Source: Neelides folsomi (Eukaryota > Arthropoda > Collembola > Neelipleona > Neelidae). From it: a stretch of DNA of 64,000 nt. The stretch's first letter is position 1, and every line of letters starts with the position of its first letter. A model generated the notes under the pieces. That model was given only the letters and a program-made list of their open reading frames with translations, had not been told where the DNA came from and searched no databases. Shown one piece after another: positions 17,201-57,297 of the stretch. Position numbers and translations under genes: made by a program. The DNA lies in the NCBI GenBank assembly GCA_034687125.1, contig JAQGBZ010000023.1:248001-312000 (forward strand), read 5' to 3'.

Positions 17201-18510
17201 TAAAAAAGATAAAAAATGGAGTAATAAGTTTGATGGTAAAATTCTCAAATGCATACGTAAACATAATGACGACCATTGCATGCTCAAAACGGTCATATGA
17301 GAAGGCAAAGTTTGAGGTTGAGTAATGAAAGCAATGTTGATCGAAAGGTGAGATACGGATTTGAATAGGAACCTAAAGTATTATAATACCTTTTATAACT
17401 ACATACCTAGCTCTGATGAATATAATGAATAAAAGCTCCGCTTTTCCTCACTTCGACTCCCATTCAAATCCACGGATGAAATGTACATGGAGGACTTTCC
17501 GAACAATATTTCTTAACGTCCATGAGCTTGAGAGAAATGTAAATTTTTTATCCGTTTCCCACGATTGAACTCCAGAGTCCTCGAGACTCCAATGGAGACA
17601 TTAGTCACATCAAGTAGGAACTTAAGGGTATCATTACGTGAATTTATGCAGAATAACTCATATCCGGCAACGGTGGTTGGAGAAAAACAAAGTTTCCCTC
17701 CAGCTGCCCATACAAGAACCTCGTGAGGAAGATAAGAATATAAGTATAATTTGCAGGAAATTGAATTGCCATTTAAAGAAATAAAATGTAAAAGTATGAA
17801 TGTCCAGACTGAGGACCGGCCTGAGTTTATGGGTAGTGGCTGTAATGTGAATGGTAAATAGACGCAGAGCGTTTAGAGTTTCGGGAGCTCCTCGACTGCC
17901 GACCATCTGCTCTCTCGTCTCTAATGTCCTCATATCCACATCCTCTCTAGCCGAACAAAGCGAAGGCTCGGAGCATTTATTACAAATTCCATTTGCTCAC
18001 AGTAAAAATTAAGACTACTCATTGTGCCCATATTGCCTCTTGATTCACGCATTCTCCAGGGCAAACTCACTTTCTCATCTCTACTCTTTTATACCTATAG
18101 ATCCATACATAAATCATAGGAGGATTTCTTTCAATGAAATAGCATGATGGAATGTTTTTAATCCTGTTTCCAATTTCTAACGTTATATTTAAAAAATAAC
18201 TTCATTTATTATAGGAGATTACTCGCAATATCCTCTTTAGGATATTTGACATTTTGAATTAGGAACCAACCCTTGTCCTCAACCCTTATTTAATTTTTGT
18301 ATTACTAAATGTATAAGTATACTTCAATTCGTATATTTATAATATCTACATTCGTACCAGATGGTAAATGAGTTGTTCGTTCGTTACTTTCTTATGGTAT
18401 TATTAATTAATATTAATTACTTAATTAGATAATTATAAATATACTACCATAATTTAAAATATAATTATATAAGTACAACTATTTTAATAAAATGAAGAAA
18501 ATGGACGCAC
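14209..18510. other. Non-coding stretch with GC-rich islands, downstream of the CXXC exon
   Basis: No gene is recognised. GC-richer islands lie near 14550-14940, 15390-15740, 16200-16890 and 17500-17990, separated by AT-rich DNA. One island contains a short TG-rich run near 14590-14605. The last 300 bases before the CXXC exon are very AT-rich. If the CXXC exon belongs to a multi-exon Tet gene, this is the 5' part of the intron that follows its donor at 18509-18510. Confidence 0.5.
14903..14923. repeat. Three perfect tandem copies of the heptamer TAGGACC
   Basis: TAGGACC occurs three times head to tail with no mismatch, at the edge of a GC-rich island. It is too short to be a minisatellite and does not match the usual arthropod telomere unit TTAGG. 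No function is evident. Confidence 0.8.
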
Positions 18511-20130
18511 CTTTTTTTCAGTGAGCTTCTCGCAGCGTCTAACTTTACAGATTTGATGACTCTTGTCGTTTCGACACGGAGCGCATTCTCCGCAGTTGTC
18601 CTTCCTTTGGCATCCGATACATTCACCGCAGCGTTTCCTCTTCTTCTTCACCGGCTTGTCATGTCCGTCGTCCAGTCCGTTCCCATTGTGTCCTCCGTTG
18701 AGCCCATGAAGACCAATGTTCAAGTTTGGCCTCTTGAAATCATTAGAGTCCGTACTGCTCACCGAGCTCACTTGTGGCTCATTCAAATCGTTGTTGTTGA
18801 GAAGGCCATGGTGACCCAACTCGGGGAGATCAAGTCGTTTCCTCTTCCCGTTCTTCTTCCCGTTCATTCCGCTGTTCCCAGCCGGCGAATTGGAATTGGA
18901 GACAATCCCAGGACTATTTTGTTCATTTTCTAATTTGATCAAGTGATTTTGCTGGAACTGTTGACCGAGATGCCCAAAACTCTTGACCGCAATCACGTGG
19001 CCGTGATGATGTTCCAACCCATCTCCATTCGTATTGCCATTGCCATTGCCATTATTGTTATTCCCGAGGTACTTTGGCATTTGAAGAGACCCAAACGACC
19101 CGTGAGGATCAATCGAATTGAGCTCAGTTTTGATAGTGGTCATGGCGGGATGAAGAGATGGAACAGGTACGAGTTCCCCGATGTTGAGATGGTTCGAGTT
19201 CCCATAATGCCCCTGTCCATTCATTCCATTCCCATATCCATTTCCATTGAAGCCAATTTGTATATGGCCATGGCGATCGTCAAGGAACTGCTGTTGAAGG
19301 TTCACCTCCCTCTGCCCGTTGTGATGATGGTGAGGATGTGGGGGATGTTGCGGGTTGAAAGATCCCCGCACCGGCAATGTGTGAAAGCTGGGGAGAAGAT
19401 TATCCCCGTTCCCGTTAACTTGACCGTGTTGGGCCTGGTGGGACTGATGAACTCCCTGTTGATGAATGTTTACGTGATTCGGCGGAATGTCGGAGAAGGA
19501 GTTGAACTGTGATTGGAAAGAGGGAAGTTTCCCGCCTAGAGACCCGTTTTGACCATTTTGGTGAGCAAAGGACTGGTCGGAATTGGGAAATCCTGGAAAT
19601 GCACTCGTGAGGGTTGTGAGAGTTGGCGACTTCCCGTTGCCAGTCACGGTGATTGAACCATTCGTCGTCGTCGTCGTAGAGACAGAAGGCGAAGAAGGTG
19701 AGGCAGTCGAAGGCGAGGACGAGATCGGCTTCTCCCAAGGTCTGTATTGAACACCGCCATCAATATCGAGGGCGTGGCGGGGATCGAGGAGCAGCCGAGT
19801 CGAAAGGCCATCACTCGTTGGGAGAGCGTAAGGGCCAATGTCCCAGGAAGGATGCAGTTCGAGGTATCTCATCTCCATGAAGTTCCCTCCTGGGAGAGAG
19901 TCGGGAAGGTCTGGAAATGGATTGAAACTCGACTTCAACAGCGTTAAATGGGACGCTGTGAGTGAGGAGTCAGAAATGTCTGTGAGGCCATTAGGAATCG
20001 GAATTGCGACGGGAATCGGAGTTGTTGAAGTGGGAGAAAATGCCTCTTTTCCGCCTCCTCCGAACCCGCCATATCCTGGATGTTGCTCCAGGGTTCCTCC
20101 ACCAGGATCTGCAGTTTCGCTCATTTTCAT
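18511..20130 (-). CDS. Tet: N-terminal coding exon of a TET-type CXXC zinc-finger protein (partial)
   Basis: The exon codes for 540 residues and ends at a codon boundary in the donor AAG|GTGCGT (GT at 18510-18509). Without splicing the frame runs only eight more codons. Residues about 492-540 form a CXXC zinc finger: a basic KKKRKRC entry, CGECIGC, NCGECAPC, then HQIC and RRC, eight cysteines in all, followed by EKLTEKK. It lacks the KFGG motif of the MLL/DNMT1 class and resembles the TET1/TET3/CXXC4/CXXC5 class, most closely what I recall of insect Tet. The rest is low-complexity Gly, Asn, His, Pro and Ser sequence. TET enzymes oxidise 5-methylcytosine, or N6-methyladenine and RNA bases in flies, and the CXXC finger binds CpG DNA. 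The catalytic exons are not in the window. A possible acceptor TTACAG lies about 15 bases upstream of the ATG, suggesting a 5'UTR intron. A stand-alone CXXC4/5-like gene is the alternative. Confidence 0.75.
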
Positions 20131-40300: not shown

Positions 40301-42430
40301 ACAATGGAATGGAAATAGCTTTCTTAAAGTCTCAGTGCGTTTTTATATCACTTCTCACAGTTGTCGCAATTTGCATCAAAATGGCAAATCAATTCCTTTT
40401 AGCTTGAACAATATCTTCTTGCATTCCCATTTACACATTGAAATGGATTGTAAAATGGTCAGCAATAGGGCACTTATGCTTAACATTTATGCTCAAGGAA
40501 ATGTTGAGCGTTCTTTAACAATGTGTAAATCATGGAATGATATATAAAAGGAAGATTAATGGTATTGCCATTTGGACTATAAAATTATATGATAAGTGCG
40601 GCATTACCAGCAGAACTTATTTCACTTTACTACCCCAATAACGAGGAATTGACTGAATGTGAGAGTGGGAGATTATTTATATATTAAAATACAAATCAGT
40701 GCAATGTTTACTGACACGTGCTGGAAAGGTAGAAACTTATGTTTTGATATCGTGAGGTTCTCGGATTCTAATGGCAAAAGTTGAACTTGGATTTTTCTAT
40801 TTATGTGAGTAAAGTGGGAAGCCGTTTAAAGGAACTGAACGTGCGCTTTCTCCACGTGTCTCTCACATTCACTATCAACAGTCTCATAAAACATATGCAT
40901 TTTTATAGATAAAGTATGATTGCTCGCTATTTCCTCCACTTTCTTTCAAAAACTATAATTTGCAATTCCGATATTTCAACTTTCTACAAATTAATGTAAA
41001 AATATGAGGGCAATAAACAAACTAGAAATTAGTAAAATGTCAATTAAAAAGTATACTTACAGTTGTAGTAAGTGGAACGATGCTTCTGCCCTGAAACCTC
41101 GATCGGAGTGGAGGATCCAGAGGATTGCCTTTAAAAAATGGAACCGGAAGACCGAGAGCTATAACTCGAAAATTCTTGTTGACACGAACCAATTTCCATC
41201 TTTCCAATGCTTCGCTCCCATGTTCCTACAAACGTTGCAATTTAAATCAAACCCATTAGCATAAATTCATAATCGCATAAAATAATACTATTTTTCATAT
41301 TAAGCTAAAAAAACCAATAAATTCATTATTGCAGTCTTGGGACATTTAATAAAGTAATTAATTGAAGCTCATTCCAAAACTTGGAGAAATGATTATAGCA
41401 TATGATAAATAAAAACTATAATGAACTTTGTATAGTTTATCGAAAGTCGATGAAGAAATCAAATGTCGCCCATCTTCTAGGTGCATTTCTCGGTTTTCTA
41501 ATAAATTGTTCAAAAGTGGCAAAACATTTCTCTCTGCTTTCTCAATTCCTTCAATGATGAGAAGACGACCTTCCACAGCCGCCCGCACTGCGGACTAAAA
41601 CCAAATAAAATTATATAATAAATCAAAAGAAAATTATATCTGATAAGCAGTCAATCCTGACCTGATCAATATATTGAGCCGTTTTAGAAATGACTTCTCT
41701 CCTTTGTTTCATGTCTGACTCCGTTGTGTCGCGAGATAATGAAAGATACTCGACTTCCCGGTGAGTCAGTTCGGCGAAGGCCATTGCTAAATGTCTTCGA
41801 GAAGGACCAGGAGGCCCAATTAAAAACATGTCCTGCCCCAATAAATCCTTCTTCAACATCCATCGTAAATGATTTAGCTCTGTTTGGCTGATATTATTCT
41901 CATCTGTAACATAATTGCACTTTATGTAACAAAGATTGGATACACAATAAATGGTATTATTTTGAGAATAGTACCCTTTGCTTAATAATTAACATGACAT
42001 TTTATTAAATGAAAATAAAAAAGTTACAATATAAAGTTGGGATGAAAGCAGGTGTCTTGGGTTCTTGAATCTCTTTAGAAATTGATCCAATATAGATTTG
42101 TAGCGGATATGGCTTCTTGTATGTTGCCTCTATTAAAAATCTTAAAATTACCTTCAAAGATAATATCTCATTCTTAATATTTATTGTGTATAATGAAATA
42201 ATGACTTAAATAATAATCATTCAATATTATATCCTAGATCGAGATAAAAGTAATTTGATGAAAATACCTGAAGAAGCATTACGAAGAATCAATCTTTCAT
42301 TTATATTGATGTATTTAAAGTTCTTCTTTGGCACCCTATACTGTTGAACAATACTTCGATTTATCAAGAATCGGATTGTTTTACTAGAATTTACATGTTG
42401 ACAAGCCTTGTAAAGACGATTCGTGAACAT
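31315..42430 (-). CDS. VWA8: VWA8: mitochondrial AAA+ and von Willebrand A domain ATPase, compact form
   Basis: Twenty coding exons: 42268-42430, 42028-42129, 41662-41903, 41427-41594, 41061-41225, 36839-37027, 36404-36745, 36147-36307, 35743-36055, 35448-35653, 34300-34504, 34076-34224, 33815-33971, 33355-33750, 33101-33264, 32551-32974, 32337-32445, 32095-32215, 31549-31983 and 31315-31417. They sum to 4314 bases, or 1437 residues, in frame throughout. The N-terminus is basic with no acidic residues early on, as expected for a mitochondrial presequence. Three AAA+ modules follow. Module 1 has a degenerate Walker A, GPPGPSRRH. Module 2 has GSRGTGKS. Module 3 has GNQGVGKNK with Walker B VIIIDEADKA. 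The C-terminal VWA domain has the MIDAS DCSGS and ends at PQILQRIFTQT. Exon by exon it matches human VWA8, except that about 470-540 residues between module 3 and the VWA region are missing. The intron after exon 5 is 3.8 kb and holds another gene; the rest are mostly short. Human VWA8 is a matrix-side mitochondrial ATPase of uncertain role. Confidence 0.95.
34651..35295 (+). pseudogene. Decayed intronless retrocopy-like pseudogene inside a VWA8 intron
   Basis: It is antisense within the VWA8 intron 34505-35447. It opens with an ATG and 105 codons (MADKEPNKEDATYASQ...), then decays. After about residue 90 the frame shifts to ETSKELHDELNKRYGEGK-like sequence, a stop follows DSL, and a further frameshift is needed before a long Lys/Glu-rich stretch (LAKLKEHYEEEKKKHPAF) that runs to TAG at 35295. 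Summed over frames it spans about 210 codons of helical, charged, coiled-coil-like sequence without introns. That is the pattern of a retroposed copy that has lost function. The parent gene is not recognised. No clear poly-A tail is visible after the stop. Confidence 0.6.
39017..40090 (-). CDS. Intronless protein of unknown function nested in a VWA8 intron
   Basis: A single open frame of 357 codons from ATG 40090 lies within the 3.8-kb VWA8 intron 37028-41060, on the same strand. I do not recognise the family. It is Lys, Ser and Glu-rich, with a seven-Ser run broken by one Leu near the middle and a strongly basic stretch (KKEKKKKVRI). The N-terminal segment GTRQFLLGE is echoed near the C-terminus by NTRVFLMGE, a possible ancient internal duplication. 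There is no signal peptide or membrane segment. Its length in AT-rich DNA makes a chance frame unlikely. An in-frame TTG lies 13 codons upstream, but ATG 40090 is the first methionine. It could be a retrogene or a lineage-specific gene. Without an own-promoter signal, an alternative VWA8 exon cannot be wholly excluded. Confidence 0.7.
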   Translation of the reverse strand: MWESAKKPMKIRSIVGKDGTRQFLLGECAENERILKNVRRELKKPKEEKEELLNVNLKKLSLSHVTNIDRGECELFEINGSQLAHAELRKKKLSHSIDLDNKNIYDYSSIFDPDFVPIQSPFIKSLARGRVTRSMSPINHNTNNGIENSLCSRILSWIDLEVKRNNNGSNNVWILGGENSNKHSTNDQLNMKKLRRDDSTDLSIISLTPSDRSSLSTECESRKSNDAISSSLSSSSSSLTTPMSVLVKNFEKKEKKKKVRIIENVEEKEMLKRERKLNGRKKRMEKSQDLSFKLFDRETDDENYMGEVWIDNTRVFLMGETKSRAECRLEVPPKVVADKKGKVQVHIFLPLLESSKD

Positions 42431-43069: not shown

Positions 43070-43264
43070 ATGATTAGAATTAGAAGAAGAGGATTAACTA
43101 GGGCCCAAATTCTAATTGCTGGAATCGTAGGTGTTTTAGGCGGAATTTACATTTGGAAGCCGGCTTTTGAGAAAAAGTTTCAGCCACCTGATTTTGGCCC
43201 GATCAAAGAAATTAATTTGGCTGATTTACCGAAAGAAACAAAAGACTCTCCTAATTCAGATTAA
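43070..43264 (+). CDS. PIGBOS1: PIGBOS1-like mitochondrial membrane microprotein
   Basis: A 64-residue protein with a basic N-terminus (MIRIRRRGLTRAQ), one hydrophobic segment (ILIAGIVGVLGGIYI) and a polar tail beginning KPAFEKKF. The pattern R-x-LT-x-AQ, a Gly-rich helix, GG-x-YI-x-x-P-x-FE matches vertebrate PIGBOS1 as I know it. PIGBOS1 sits in the outer mitochondrial membrane and touches ER CLCC1 to modulate the unfolded protein response. The protein is about ten residues longer than the human one. It is the first of three small genes in tandem; the next ATG in the following frame starts only 22 bases after its stop. The family call rests on a short motif, so it is moderate. Confidence 0.65.
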   Translation: MIRIRRRGLTRAQILIAGIVGVLGGIYIWKPAFEKKFQPPDFGPIKEINLADLPKETKDSPNSD

Positions 43265-43285
43265 TTTAAAACACAAAATAATGAA

Positions 43286-43630
43286 ATGATATTTCGTAAA
43301 ATTGGTGAATTTTACTATAAAAATAAAGTTGTTGTTTACGCATCGGCGTTATTTACAGTCGCATTTTATTATACCGTTGTGGGTCGAGCTCAGATAAAGT
43401 AATTAAAGTCTCGCTCATAATTTTCAATAAATTTTACAACAAATTATATAAATTAATGACAATCAAATATATCTAAACTATTAACTAATAACGTTTTTGA
43501 TTTGTATAACAGTTCAGCACGGATAAAACGAAATTCGGACATTGGAGAAGAAGTCTTCAGGAGAAGTTATCCCGAATTGGTTGAAGCCAGAGAAGCAAGA
43601 TTTCAAAATCTTCCAACTCAAGCAAAATGA
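43286..43630 (+). CDS. Single-pass membrane microprotein, second gene of the tight cluster
   Basis: Two exons, 43286-43398 and 43513-43630, joined AA|GTAATT ... AACAG|TTC, give 76 residues in frame. Unspliced, the frame stops three bases past the donor. The protein has a short basic N-terminus (MIFRKIGEFYYKNK), one hydrophobic span (VVVYASALFTVAFYYTVV) and an Arg/Glu tail ending FQNLPTQAK. I do not recognise it. Its size, single span and charged tail resemble inner-membrane assembly microproteins of the SMIM kind. Its stop codon TGA overlaps the ATG of the bL17m gene as ATGA. An ATG at 43281 just upstream opens only a two-codon frame. The two-exon frame fit supports a real gene. Confidence 0.7.
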
Positions 43631-44562
43631 ATCAAGCAGCGTTAACCCAAATAGTTTCAAAGCTTCGGATTAAGATTCTTCCGAGAGCTAGAATTTTTGC
43701 CAATATAGAAGGTCAAGCTGGGAGGATCAAGAACATGAGAATGACAGTTGAAGCATTACTTCGACACGAAAGAATAGAACTTAATTTTTACAGAGCCGAT
43801 GAGGCTCGAGGTTATGCCGAAAGACTTATCGCTGATGCTCTTCGGTACGGAGAATGTCATCGACCAACAATGGAAATGGCCAATTTTTGGTTACAAGATA
43901 AGGCGTTAGTTCCTAAGCTATTCAAGGTTCTAGTCCCCAGATTCATGGATTTGCCATCAAATCTGCCTTATACTCGTCTTTTAAAAGCGCCATATATTTC
44001 TCGTAAGCTCAAATTATCTTGTCAATTAAATTCTACATTTATTAAAATAATATTATGTAAAAATAACTGTATTTATGCTCAGATTTATGAACCATTTTAT
44101 ATTAAATCTTATAATTAGCTGACGAACACAAGAAATTTGAATGGCCTGCTAAGAGAATAAGACGATATGATAGAGCTATCCTTGAATTACGTGGAAATCC
44201 TTATCCTCCTCTTCCTGGTCCAATGAACAAAACAAATCCATCTTCGATTGTAAATGTTCTCTTAGAAGAAGCAAGAAGAGATATTTATTCTTCTCGTAAA
44301 ACAAGCCTTTCAAGCAGGTAATATATAATTATTAATACAATAATGTTCTGTGTAATCTATTTTTTGTTATTTAAGATTTGAAATTATGTAATTAAATGCA
44401 TTATTAATCCATTACATAATAATAATTGCGCGAACGTATTTATTTAGTACTGTTGAACCACCTGAGATGGATGCTGAAATTTCTCATTCAGAACCTCAAG
44501 AGGAAATTTCCACTGATTCACAAATTGAATCCGAAGAAGTAAAAGAAGAGAAAAAATCTTAG
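43627..44562 (+). CDS. mRpL17: Mitochondrial ribosomal protein bL17m
   Basis: Three exons, 43627-44002, 44119-44317 and 44448-44562, total 690 bases and 229 residues. The conserved L17 core is plain: ILPRARIFANIEGQAGRIKN, then LLRHERIELNF, RGYAERLI, MANFWLQDKALVPKLFKVL, PR, and YTRLLKAP, matching the order of human MRPL17. The Pro-rich segment NPYPPLPGP follows in exon 2, as in the human protein. The C-terminal exon is an acidic, poorly conserved tail, which makes the protein longer than the roughly 175-residue human form. It is a component of the large mitoribosomal subunit in the matrix. No ATG occurs between 43513 and its start, so an mRNA beginning at that acceptor would translate this frame first. 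Confidence 0.93.
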
Positions 44563-44683: not shown

Positions 44684-44689
44684 AATAAA
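44684..44689 (+). other. Polyadenylation signal AATAAA for bL17m
   Basis: AATAAA lies about 120 bases past the bL17m stop, followed by a T-rich stretch. It is the first canonical signal after the three-gene cluster; none is seen between the cluster members. Confidence 0.6.
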
Positions 44690-52647: not shown

Positions 52648-55600
52648 ATGTTTTTGCTCCTAAGTGCCTCGCTGCTCTTTCTCCTCTCGACTTCTTTCGT
52701 CGCCTCGTTCCAGTTCACAGAAGAGTCGGCCTTATCAATCCCATCGGTAAAAAAAAGCATTTTGGATGTTTCTGATGGTCCTTGAGACCTTATATGTGAA
52801 ATCTCACAGGTTTGCCATTCATAAGTAATTGTAAATTAAATCAGATCATTAATTTCTCCAGTGGGACAGCAAGAAGAGGGAGGAGGCCGTGACGGCCTTT
52901 TATAAAGGGTGCAACGAAGATGAGAGTAGGAATGGACGGGATGGGCTCAAGACCTGCTACGGTGCTTTTGAAGAGGACTGTGTGGCCAAGAAGTCCTGCC
53001 ACTTTGCTGTGTCAATCACGGACGAGTTAAGGGGATTTACGATCACTTTGCTCGATTTTATGGACTTGCTCTCTCGGGCTGGTGGCTGGATTCACCTCAA
53101 AGACTTCTTCTTTGCTCTCGGATTAGACACAAGCAACGTAAGATCCTACCTCAAACCTTGCCCCAGACTCAAACCTAACAAATCCACTCATCAATTTTAT
53201 TCCACACTTATCGGAAACCCCGCCGCCTTTGCCAAAAAGAAACTCTCAAGTGTCTCTGACGCCGACCTACCATATATAAATAAGCAGAGTTTAATTTAGA
53301 AATCGATCCATCAATGAGAAAATTTTTACAACATTCCCAATTTCAAAGATTCTTGAGCAGAATCAGTGTCTTTTACTATGTAATTTATATAAGTATGTAA
53401 GTAAATATAATGTGTCGATGTCGAACGGAAGTTGAGGATTTCTGGATTTCTAAACAATATGTCTTTTCTTAGAAATTGAGCTGATCTATAGCAAACAAAT
53501 GGAATCAAATTATCATGTTAAGATCAAGGGTCTGAGATATGGAGGGAAAGCATGGAAAAAATTAGAAGATGAGATTGTGAAGGAATGTGGAGGGAAGAGA
53601 AATGTTTTGGAATGGGATTGAGAAGGGGACAGCAGGATGATAATAAATCATTAATAAGGATGAATGTAATATGGATTGATTTCAATTTGGCAGGATCGGG
53701 GCGGCGTGGAGTGTCGGCTGCCAACATTGAAAGATTTCAAGGTCTTTATGTTCTCCGACAGGGACCCGAGGAAATGGATCATTCCAAAGGTAAGGAAATC
53801 TTTCATCATCTCCTTTCAAGAAAATGATTTTTTATCCATTGGATCAACCCCCCATGTCTATAATTGATATGATCAATGATTGACCAAATTGAATATCATC
53901 AACTCTGCCTCACAGACTTTTCCCATAAATGGAACTTTTAAATCACAGTGAATCATTTAGGACATTACGGCTCTCGTCATAAAAATTATCCTGTCAGCGG
54001 ACCCCATCAAATCCCTATTTACTCCCAAACTAAACGCTCACCTTTAACAGCTTTTAAAACGAGAACGAAAGAGAATATAAAACTACACACATAAATCTCT
54101 AAAGTGAATGAGTCTTGTGTATAAAAAATACAAAAGCCCGTTTTTACAAATAAGAATTGAACTTTGGCCAAACACGTAATATTATCCTTTTCCGTTTATT
54201 CCCCTTCGAAATGAAAACGACGGGTGTTGAATGTTCGAAACAAACATTTGATTTTGATTGTTTCATTTAACATTGAAACAGACGTTTAAAAATTGGTTTC
54301 TTGCATGAGTTAAATATAGGATTTGGAAATCTGTCTGCAATCTATTCATAAATAATTTCCAACAGTAGACGGAGACAAAAATATGTATAAAAAGAGTACC
54401 GAAATAAAAGAGAGCAAAATATTCAGAAATAACATAATCAAGATGAACCAATTTATTGTAATTTTAAACAGACGGAGCTCAGCGTTGGTAAACGATTGAT
54501 GAATAAAAATGAATGGAAACGAGACTGCGACTCTCGTCGGCTTTCTGGTCTTCTCAGAACCTCCGACCCCAACAACTTCAACTTGACTTCTTACATTAGA
54601 ACAAATTCTCTTTTCTCTCTCTCCTCAAATCCTACATTGTACAGAACTCAGGATTATTCTTCAGTTCGGTTCATCACCAGCGACTCGATCCTTTATACAG
54701 ACATTGATTCATTGAATAGAGACGGAGGAGGAGGAATAGAATCTCCAGAAAATTCAATTGATAGATTCTATGAAGGTTGTGCTACACCAGATAGAAGCGA
54801 CAAACGCTGCTTTGGTCTCTTTTACTCTGACTGTCTTCAGAGGAAATCTTGTGCCCTTGCGGCGTCCATTAAAGAAAACTCAACTCATTTCCAACTTGAC
54901 TTGCTGAATTCGGTGAAGGGACAATTTGGAAAACCAAGCGGGCATGTTTACATGGCCGCTTCACTCGCCACCGTTGTGAAAACGGTATCGGTAATTTAGT
55001 GAATAGATTTACTTTATTTAAGCACCTAAATTAATTTTGTTTTGCACATTTACACGTTTCATTATTAATTTAAACTTTTAATGAATAACCTGAAATTAAT
55101 AGTTTATAAAAATTAAAATTTCTTGTTAAAGGGCGATGAACTAGAGATTGAATGCAGAACACCGACAATGGAAGATTTTAAAATATTCCTATTTTGGAAT
55201 CATAATGGAATTGAAAAGGTCCATTGATATTAATATTTAAATAGATAAATTATTTAGTACATACATATTTATAAGGGAATTTTTCAATTTGAAATTCAAC
55301 CAGTTTTTTGTTTAATAGGCCTCCAATGGAACTGATTTTTCAAAGGCCTCCAACACGATCGACAAAGAAACTTTCAGAAGAAATTGCGAAAGAGATTATG
55401 CAGGAAAGAGCAAAAAGTTTTTCGGCGATGAAATCAACTTTTACCTGGACCGTTCCCTCTCATCTATAGGAATCATGACTATCAGAATTCATGGTAAATT
55501 ACTCACTTCTTTCCCTTCATATCACGATAAAACTCCCATTTCAAACAATTAAGGCACTGTTTCACTAGTTCACTATTAAACCCTTTCCACTAAATTAAAC

Positions 55601-57297
55601 CCAATCCATTTAGCTCCTAGAGCTAACATAAGTGAACAACAGAATTTAATCCATTTAGAAGTGATTACCAGTGAGGGCAATCATGTCAACGTTCTTTGTT
55701 GATTGACTATGAAATGTTGAAATTTATGTTCCGAACCAAAAGCTTTCCTAATTAATTCCATTTTGTTAATGATCCAGATGAGATACGCAACCTTCACACG
55801 CGCGATCGCCTTTTCTACACAAACTACGGAGAAGCAGGAAGCCGGGAAGTTCTCCGGACCCCAATGAGCGAAATAGGGAGCAGCATTCCACGGCAACCGC
55901 AGCCGACTCAACGCTATACTCCTAGGCCAAGTCGAGTAACTGACTTGGAAGAAGGAAAATTCCACGGATCCAACAATCGGGCAGACATCATCTCTTTTAA
56001 CAGAGCTTCAGAGGTTGAACGAGAACGACAAGAACGGGAACGAGCAAGAGAAAACGAACTCGAAAGACTTCGTTTAGAAAGAGAAAAATTCGAGAGAGAA
56101 AATGATCGAGGGCGACTTGATCGGATCCGAGCTGAAACTGAAAGAATTCGTCAACAAGAGTCTCGCCAAGAGACTGATAGAATTCGTCAATTAGAAACTG
56201 ATCGAATTAGACAGCAAGAAACTGATCGGATTAGACAACAAGAATCAGAGAGAATTAGACAACAAGAGACCGAAAGAACCCGTGGCGGATCTCGAGAAGA
56301 ACGGATAAGAAATGTAGAACGAGAGCGAATTAGTCAAGAAGAATCATTAAGCAGAAGTGAACAAGAGAGAAGAATATTAGAAAGAGAACGACAAAGACAA
56401 AGAGACGCGATGGAAAGACTTGAAAGAGAGCGAATGAGAATTGCTCAGCAAGAAAGAATCCCAATGGAAAGTGAGTCATACTTTGGGTCAAGGACAAGAC
56501 CAACGACCAGTACATTAAGACCTGTGAGGCCATTTACATATCCACAGGATATTATTACTCGACCGACGACAACAGTACCTACGACAATTCGTCACCGAGT
56601 AACGTTAAAACCCATCATTAACAAAGACCCTGAAGTTATTACTCCTGCGACTGACACGGAATCTTATTTCAATCGTGTTAGAGAAAATAGCGAGACTGTG
56701 AATTTAAATCAAAGAAAGGGAACGCTAAGTTCTCGACAACCTTATCTCGATGCTGGTGATCCAATTAAAGGACAGGCGAATGAAGTGACCGAAGTTGAAG
56801 CTGAAGATGTTGAAGGAATGAACAGAAGGATTCTTTCTGAAATTGCTAGAAGAAAATCACCACCGAAGAAAACTTTCTTCTCGGCCGAAAATCTCGATTT
56901 GAGTCTATTCAACTCTCCGAAAGGGCGAGAAACAACAAGTGTCGCTCAGGGAGGAATGGGAGTGTTTATTGGAGCTTCTAGCAGAGATACTTTTAGTACG
57001 AGCAAAACAGGGAGAAAAGAAAATGAGATCGTGATGGTTGAAGAAACCAAAATTCCTAAAAAGATTTCATCAGAATCTGACGAAGACGACGATGACGATG
57101 AGGACGAAGACGAAGACAAATATTCAAGAACTAATTTAAAAGCAAAAGAGAACAAAGAGAGAAATCAAATCCAAACTTTTTCAAGTTTAAGAAATCGAGA
57201 AACGTCAACGAAGCCAACGTCAAGTGCTTTTTCGCTCAAGATCAATTTGTTTATTTTAATAGCTTCTATCACATACACCATTCTATTATATAACTAA
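52648..57297 (+). CDS. Secreted or surface protein with two DOMON-like units and an Arg/Glu-rich helix
   Basis: Seven exons: 52648-52746, 52862-53137, 53694-53789, 54472-54990, 55132-55218, 55319-55493 and 55778-57297. They total 2772 bases and 923 residues, in frame. Residues 1-20 form a clear signal peptide (FLLLSASLLFLLSTSFVAS). Units at about 46-157 and 258-359 share C-[YF]-G-x-x-x-x-x-C-x-x-[KR]KSC. They then have a strand-rich region and a [VI]EC segment followed by RxPTxxDFKxF, a layout like the DOMON domains of ferric-chelate-reductase-1-type proteins, which bind haem or sugars. Each unit is followed by a related cysteine segment (KRDC, RRNC). Residues about 494-651 are almost all Arg, Glu and Gln, predicted to be one long helix. 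A Thr-rich part, an acidic run and a hydrophobic C-terminus (INLFILIASITYTILL) follow, suggesting a GPI signal or tail anchor. The ligand and partners are unknown. The donor after exon 5 (GTCCAT) is weak. Confidence 0.8.
56119..56280 (+). repeat. In-frame 24-base repeats coding for RIRQQETD-type octapeptides
   Basis: Within the last exon of the DOMON gene, about six 8-residue units follow one another (RIRAETE, RIRQQES, RIRQLETD, RIRQQETD, RIRQQESE, RIRQQETE). Synonymous differences between units show they are not a very recent expansion. A period of eight differs from the heptad of ordinary coiled coils and suits a stable single helix. Confidence 0.75.

Follow-up and report, generated by a model that had tools for sequence, protein, structure and literature searches.

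A putative spliced tricistronic mRNA for PIGBOS1, a candidate microprotein and bL17m

Three small frames follow one another at 43070-44562 on the plus strand of the 64-kb stretch of DNA analysed here (the window). The question is how such a cluster is expressed: as one polycistronic message, as messages separated by spliced-leader trans-splicing, or as separate overlapping transcripts. Judging from the DNA sequence, we suggest, with moderate confidence, that the best reading is a spliced tricistronic mRNA for PIGBOS1, a 76-aa protein (gene 2) and bL17m, which would be read by leaky scanning.

Layout and identity of the three frames

The frames lie where a preliminary description of this DNA placed them, including the gene 2 intron at 43399-43512, the removal of which leaves 76 open codons (43286-43398 joined to 43513-43630) up to the TGA at 43628-43630. 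Both junctions are also as described: the first stop and the second start are separated by 21 nt (43265-43285), and gene 2 and bL17m overlap in the letters ATGA, with the ATG at 43627 and the TGA at 43628-43630. The description did not include a two-codon mini-frame, AUG AAA UGA, just 5' of gene 2 at 43281-43289. The features, all on the plus strand, are as follows, with their basis in brackets.

43070..43264, plus strand: gene 1, PIGBOS1-family microprotein of 64 aa (Pfam profile, hydropathy)
43281..43289, plus strand: two-codon mini-frame, its stop overlapping the gene 2 start (sequence)
43286..43398, plus strand: gene 2 exon 1, of the 76-aa frame (open frame, donor GTAATT at 43399)
43399..43512, plus strand: gene 2 intron, 114 nt, GC 0.19, with AATAAA at 43426 (GT-AG)
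43513..43630, plus strand: gene 2 exon 2, with the ATGA overlap at its end (frame open once joined; codon score)
43627..44002, plus strand: bL17m exon 1, start context AGCAAA-ATG (PF01196, splice model)
44119..44317, plus strand: bL17m exon 2 (splice model; bL17m alignment)
44448..44562, plus strand: bL17m exon 3 with stop (splice model)
44684..44689, plus strand: AATAAA, probably the poly(A) signal for all three genes (word search)

Gene 1 belongs to the PIGBOS1 family: it matches PF23670 with E 1.8e-9 and 38.1 bits, above the curated cut-off of 27, and has a single hydrophobic segment at residues 14-32. Gene 3 matches PF01196 (L17) with E 2.7e-15, and animal bL17m chains rank first among its matches (best E 2.8e-28, residues 21-198 aligned). 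Its three exons encode 229 aa (43627-44562). Exon 2 comes from the only one of the GT/AG combinations tried that stays in frame without a stop, and the introns are 116 and 130 nt long, with GC 0.18.

In the assembly (75.1 Mb in 840 contigs) the PIGBOS1 and L17 profiles have one match each at E 1, namely gene 1 and gene 3. The mitoribosome requires bL17m, and since this is the only L17 match, the third frame should be expressed, barring a second copy missing from the assembly; bL17m would thus be made from this locus, provided that the assembly is complete. The mitochondrial character ascribed earlier to all three frames finds no Pfam or PDB support for gene 2.

The fly PIGBOS (CG34310) is located in the 3' UTR of cup, so that, like gene 1, it is a PIGBOS1 homologue within the transcript region of another gene; the partner gene differs, and the fly protein is longer, with 129 aa (PMC12740097).

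An AAA_5 domain frame (Pfam, E 1.5e-11) is found on the minus strand at 41623-41988, and a candidate first exon for it, which has no Pfam match, lies on the same strand at 42227-42430. We take the AAA_5 frame to resemble VWA8. It runs away from gene 1, and the two may have a common promoter in about 640 bases. No Rfam family matches within the 64-kb window at gathering scores.

The coding status of gene 2

Gene 2 is probably coding. Its frame crosses a well-formed intron, which resembles the bL17m introns in length and GC, and the 76-codon product has a single hydrophobic segment at residues 15-33. The in-frame codon score of exon 2 is 5.0; of 4,424 overlapping open noncoding windows, 0.5% score as high, the score having been trained on a small set of 2,308 codons from frames that are partly unverified.

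The alternative is that gene 2 encodes no protein and that 43286-43626 is the 5' leader of bL17m with an upstream frame, an arrangement that would be compatible with the other readings of the locus. It would agree with the negative score of exon 1 (-5.9) and with the nearly equal scores of the other two plus-strand frames of exon 2 (4.5 and 3.5, with one stop each). It would also agree with the missing family match: Pfam gives nothing but Styelin at E 0.9, below the cut-off, the PDB gives no match, and the genome search finds gene 2 at this locus only. However, small membrane proteins are frequently missed by profiles, and the open frame across the intron, its length, the hydrophobic segment and the rarity of the exon 2 score all argue for a protein. 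We therefore consider the leader alternative unlikely.

Pfam and PDB likewise give no match that would make gene 2 a protein of the sloth/SMIM4 or COX14-like kind, and genes 1 and 2 are rejected as paralogues, as they give no alignment with each other. If a single mRNA covers the unit, gene 2 would become a candidate for a new mitochondrial microprotein, its mitochondrial placement being a guess drawn from the neighbouring genes.

The acceptor at 43513 and the spliced-leader question

The preliminary description suggested that the acceptor at 43513 could serve either cis-splicing of gene 2 or spliced-leader trans-splicing that frees a bL17m message. In the second case a leader would join at 43513 for bL17m and perhaps at 43260 for gene 2. 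In favour of this, the 114 nt from the acceptor to the bL17m start contain no AUG, calanoid copepods are known to use spliced-leader trans-splicing (PMC4664967), and intercistronic gaps are absent from most Ciona operons (PMC7986045). The spliced-leader operons of nematodes and tunicates share with this locus close same-strand genes and short gaps. Unlike in those operons, no leader is found here in the limited search given below, and no unpaired acceptor, the mark of a spliced-leader operon, precedes bL17m: the acceptor at 43513 lies in the open gene 2 frame and pairs with the cis donor at 43399 across a 114-nt AT-rich intron that resembles the neighbouring ones. No AG occurs in the 21-nt gap between genes 1 and 2; the nearest one, at 43258-43259, stands before the gene 1 stop and could still be an acceptor. 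The earlier observation that 43513-43626 is free of ATG is correct, yet it is ordinary, as the window's 114-nt stretches are likewise ATG-free in 15% of cases where they are classed as noncoding and in 19% where they are classed as coding.

A search for a leader sequence was run on the genome with two queries from Table 1 of PMC4664967. Neither the 27-base CopepodSL core nor the opening 26 bases of the SL-like sequence from siphonostomatoids (CopepodSL-like1a/1b) occurs in the genome at up to 3 mismatches. Copepod leader genes can adjoin 5S genes (PMC4664967). The genome has eight matches to the 5S rRNA gene, spread over seven contigs without a tandem array (L011-L018), and pairwise comparison of these loci, with 1.5 kb on each side (one locus shorter), gives only single 127-168-base stretches around the 5S gene in common; nothing extra is common to the eight.

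The same genome offers a control. The MoaE profile has its matches on one contig, split into three pieces. The frame just upstream, on the same strand, we take to be MOCS2A-like; the pair lies at L027 1071-1500. In this frame the removal of a 113-nt intron fuses GGA G with GA TAA, which gives Ser-Gly-Gly-stop, and the assigned MOCS2B start lies 20 nt after this stop, the codon of which is completed by splicing. The double glycine end of MOCS2A is essential (PMC9607355). The acceptor must therefore act in cis, as it is needed for the correct Gly-Gly-stop end, and the parallel with MOCS2 thus argues against a spliced leader at 43513 as well. The pair appears to share a similar design with gene 2 and bL17m, with an acceptor just before the downstream start. 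Since two AUGs lie inside the MOCS2A-like frame before the MOCS2B start, this single case, itself read from sequence, supports the common design and not leaky scanning.

Leaky scanning is reported for human MOCS2, and in higher eukaryotes both frames of the gene share 77 bp of exon 3 (PMC9607355). The MOCS2A/MOCS2B gene resembles the proposed tricistron in that a spliced mRNA carries two frames, in the local copy with a short intron and a short gap. It differs in its product, a molybdenum cofactor enzyme, in the known dual reading of exon 3 and, in the local copy, in the AUGs between the starts. Brawnin/DUF4516, taken as a second control, is a short family and has no genome match at E 1.

Taken together, the spliced-leader part of the earlier proposal finds no support in the splice signals or in this limited leader search, and we regard trans-splicing at this locus as very improbable. 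The operon-like character of the cluster survives in another form, as one polycistronic unit would be the best reading.

A proposed single message read by leaky scanning

The bases at -3 to -1 improve in the order of the frames, from TTA in gene 1 to GAA in gene 2 and AAA in bL17m. The start of bL17m, CAAAATG, is identical to the optimal context of the fly sloth study, where it is named for sloth2 (PMC9681215). The spliced stretch 43070-43629 contains four AUGs, namely the three starts and that of the two-codon frame, which stands in a good context ahead of gene 2 (ATA-AUG, with A at -3). The features expected for leaky scanning are thus present: weak upstream starts, a strong last start and one intervening AUG. 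This scarcity of AUGs is permissive and is not evidence of selection, because the codons of these proteins give it anyway: synonymous resampling yields as few AUGs in 83% of random recodings (P = 0.83), which rules out AUG depletion as a sign of selection. Four AUGs or fewer are also found in 27% of coding and 8% of intergenic 446-nt windows.

We suggest that a promoter somewhere before 43070 would drive one unit, and that the cis-spliced mRNA, its 3' end probably formed after 44684, would carry the frames of PIGBOS1, the 76-aa gene 2 protein with its single hydrophobic segment, and bL17m. Ribosomes would enter at the cap and scan. Some would pass the PIGBOS1 start, which is weak (TTA-AUG), and the gene 2 start, which is middling (GAA-AUG), and go on to bL17m, where the start is strong (AAA-AUG). 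Reinitiation may contribute as well, through the two-codon frame at 43281 and the ATGA overlap. Human reinitiation cases depend on aspartate-rich ends with repeated AUGs (PMC3923131), so ATGA reinitiation is offered here as a possibility only.

The poly(A) words bear on whether the unit is one transcript. The preliminary description saw no such signal before the end of the third gene; this is wrong, as AATAAA stands at 43322 (gene 2 exon 1) and at 43426 (gene 2 intron) ahead of the one at 44684. In an alternative with separate transcripts, the signal at 43426 would end an mRNA of PIGBOS1 and a short gene 2, while a bL17m-only mRNA would come from a putative internal promoter or from alternative cis splicing, either with an upstream donor joined to 43513 or with a start in the gene 2 intron. 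The AUG-free run from 43513 to the bL17m start fits such a message, and monocistronic transcripts are frequent too at fly polycistronic loci (PMC4528330). On the other hand, the intron AATAAA may be a chance word: at the density of 2.5 per kb in the window, AATAAA words are weak evidence either way. We consider separate transcripts the more serious of the alternatives, though still a doubtful one. The points against the tricistron include the two AATAAA inside the unit, the good context of the two-codon AUG ahead of gene 2, the negative score of gene 2 exon 1, the nearly equal scores of the other exon 2 frames and the fact that gene 2 is without a known relative.

The tricistronic reading has parallels in flies, for which 159 dicistronic pairs and seven tricistronic sets are reported, the gaps ranging from -34 to 319 nt at loci with polycistronic transcripts only (PMC4528330); the 21-nt gap and the 4-nt overlap of the present locus fall in this range. 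A close case is Drosophila sloth1/sloth2, a bicistronic mRNA for complex III assembly microproteins, the data for which support leaky scanning, with a weak first start that lets ribosomes pass (PMC9681215). Like the proposed tricistron, it has small mitochondrial proteins with one membrane segment, a short gap (five nt in sloth), a non-optimal first context and CAAAATG downstream (PMC9681215). Unlike the tricistron, it encodes other proteins in two frames, not three, and sloth1 and sloth2 are probably paralogous, while no alignment is obtained between genes 1 and 2. Conserved upstream frames in flies also favour mitochondrial messages, for example Tim9b (PMC2276209).

Hence the kind of unit is already known from fly polycistrons, and what would be new is the partner set, together with one undescribed microprotein candidate; among the open-access matches listed, judged by title and the start of the abstract, the trio of PIGBOS1, gene 2 and bL17m is undescribed. 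If the unit is one mRNA, PIGBOS1 and bL17m join the animal polycistrons that carry mitochondrial proteins, and the locus offers a compact test of three frames dividing the scanning ribosomes. A further-reaching version, which we find improbable, is an ancient tricistron linked by function, in which translation of PIGBOS1 and of gene 2 as a mitochondrial microprotein would set bL17m output via leaky scanning and ATGA reinitiation, and so couple mitoribosome supply to organelle contact or stress signalling.

Elsewhere in the window, three long frames at 52853-57297 on the plus strand have no Pfam match at E 0.01, and one of them holds a 24-base tandem repeat (56167-56278). A long frame at 18484-20130 on the minus strand contains a CXXC zinc finger (PF02008, E 7.6e-7) and is perhaps TET or CXXC4/5-like. 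In the genome, six-fold TTAGG gives 19 overlapping matches on four contigs and its reversed control none; TTAGG repeats fit an arthropod.
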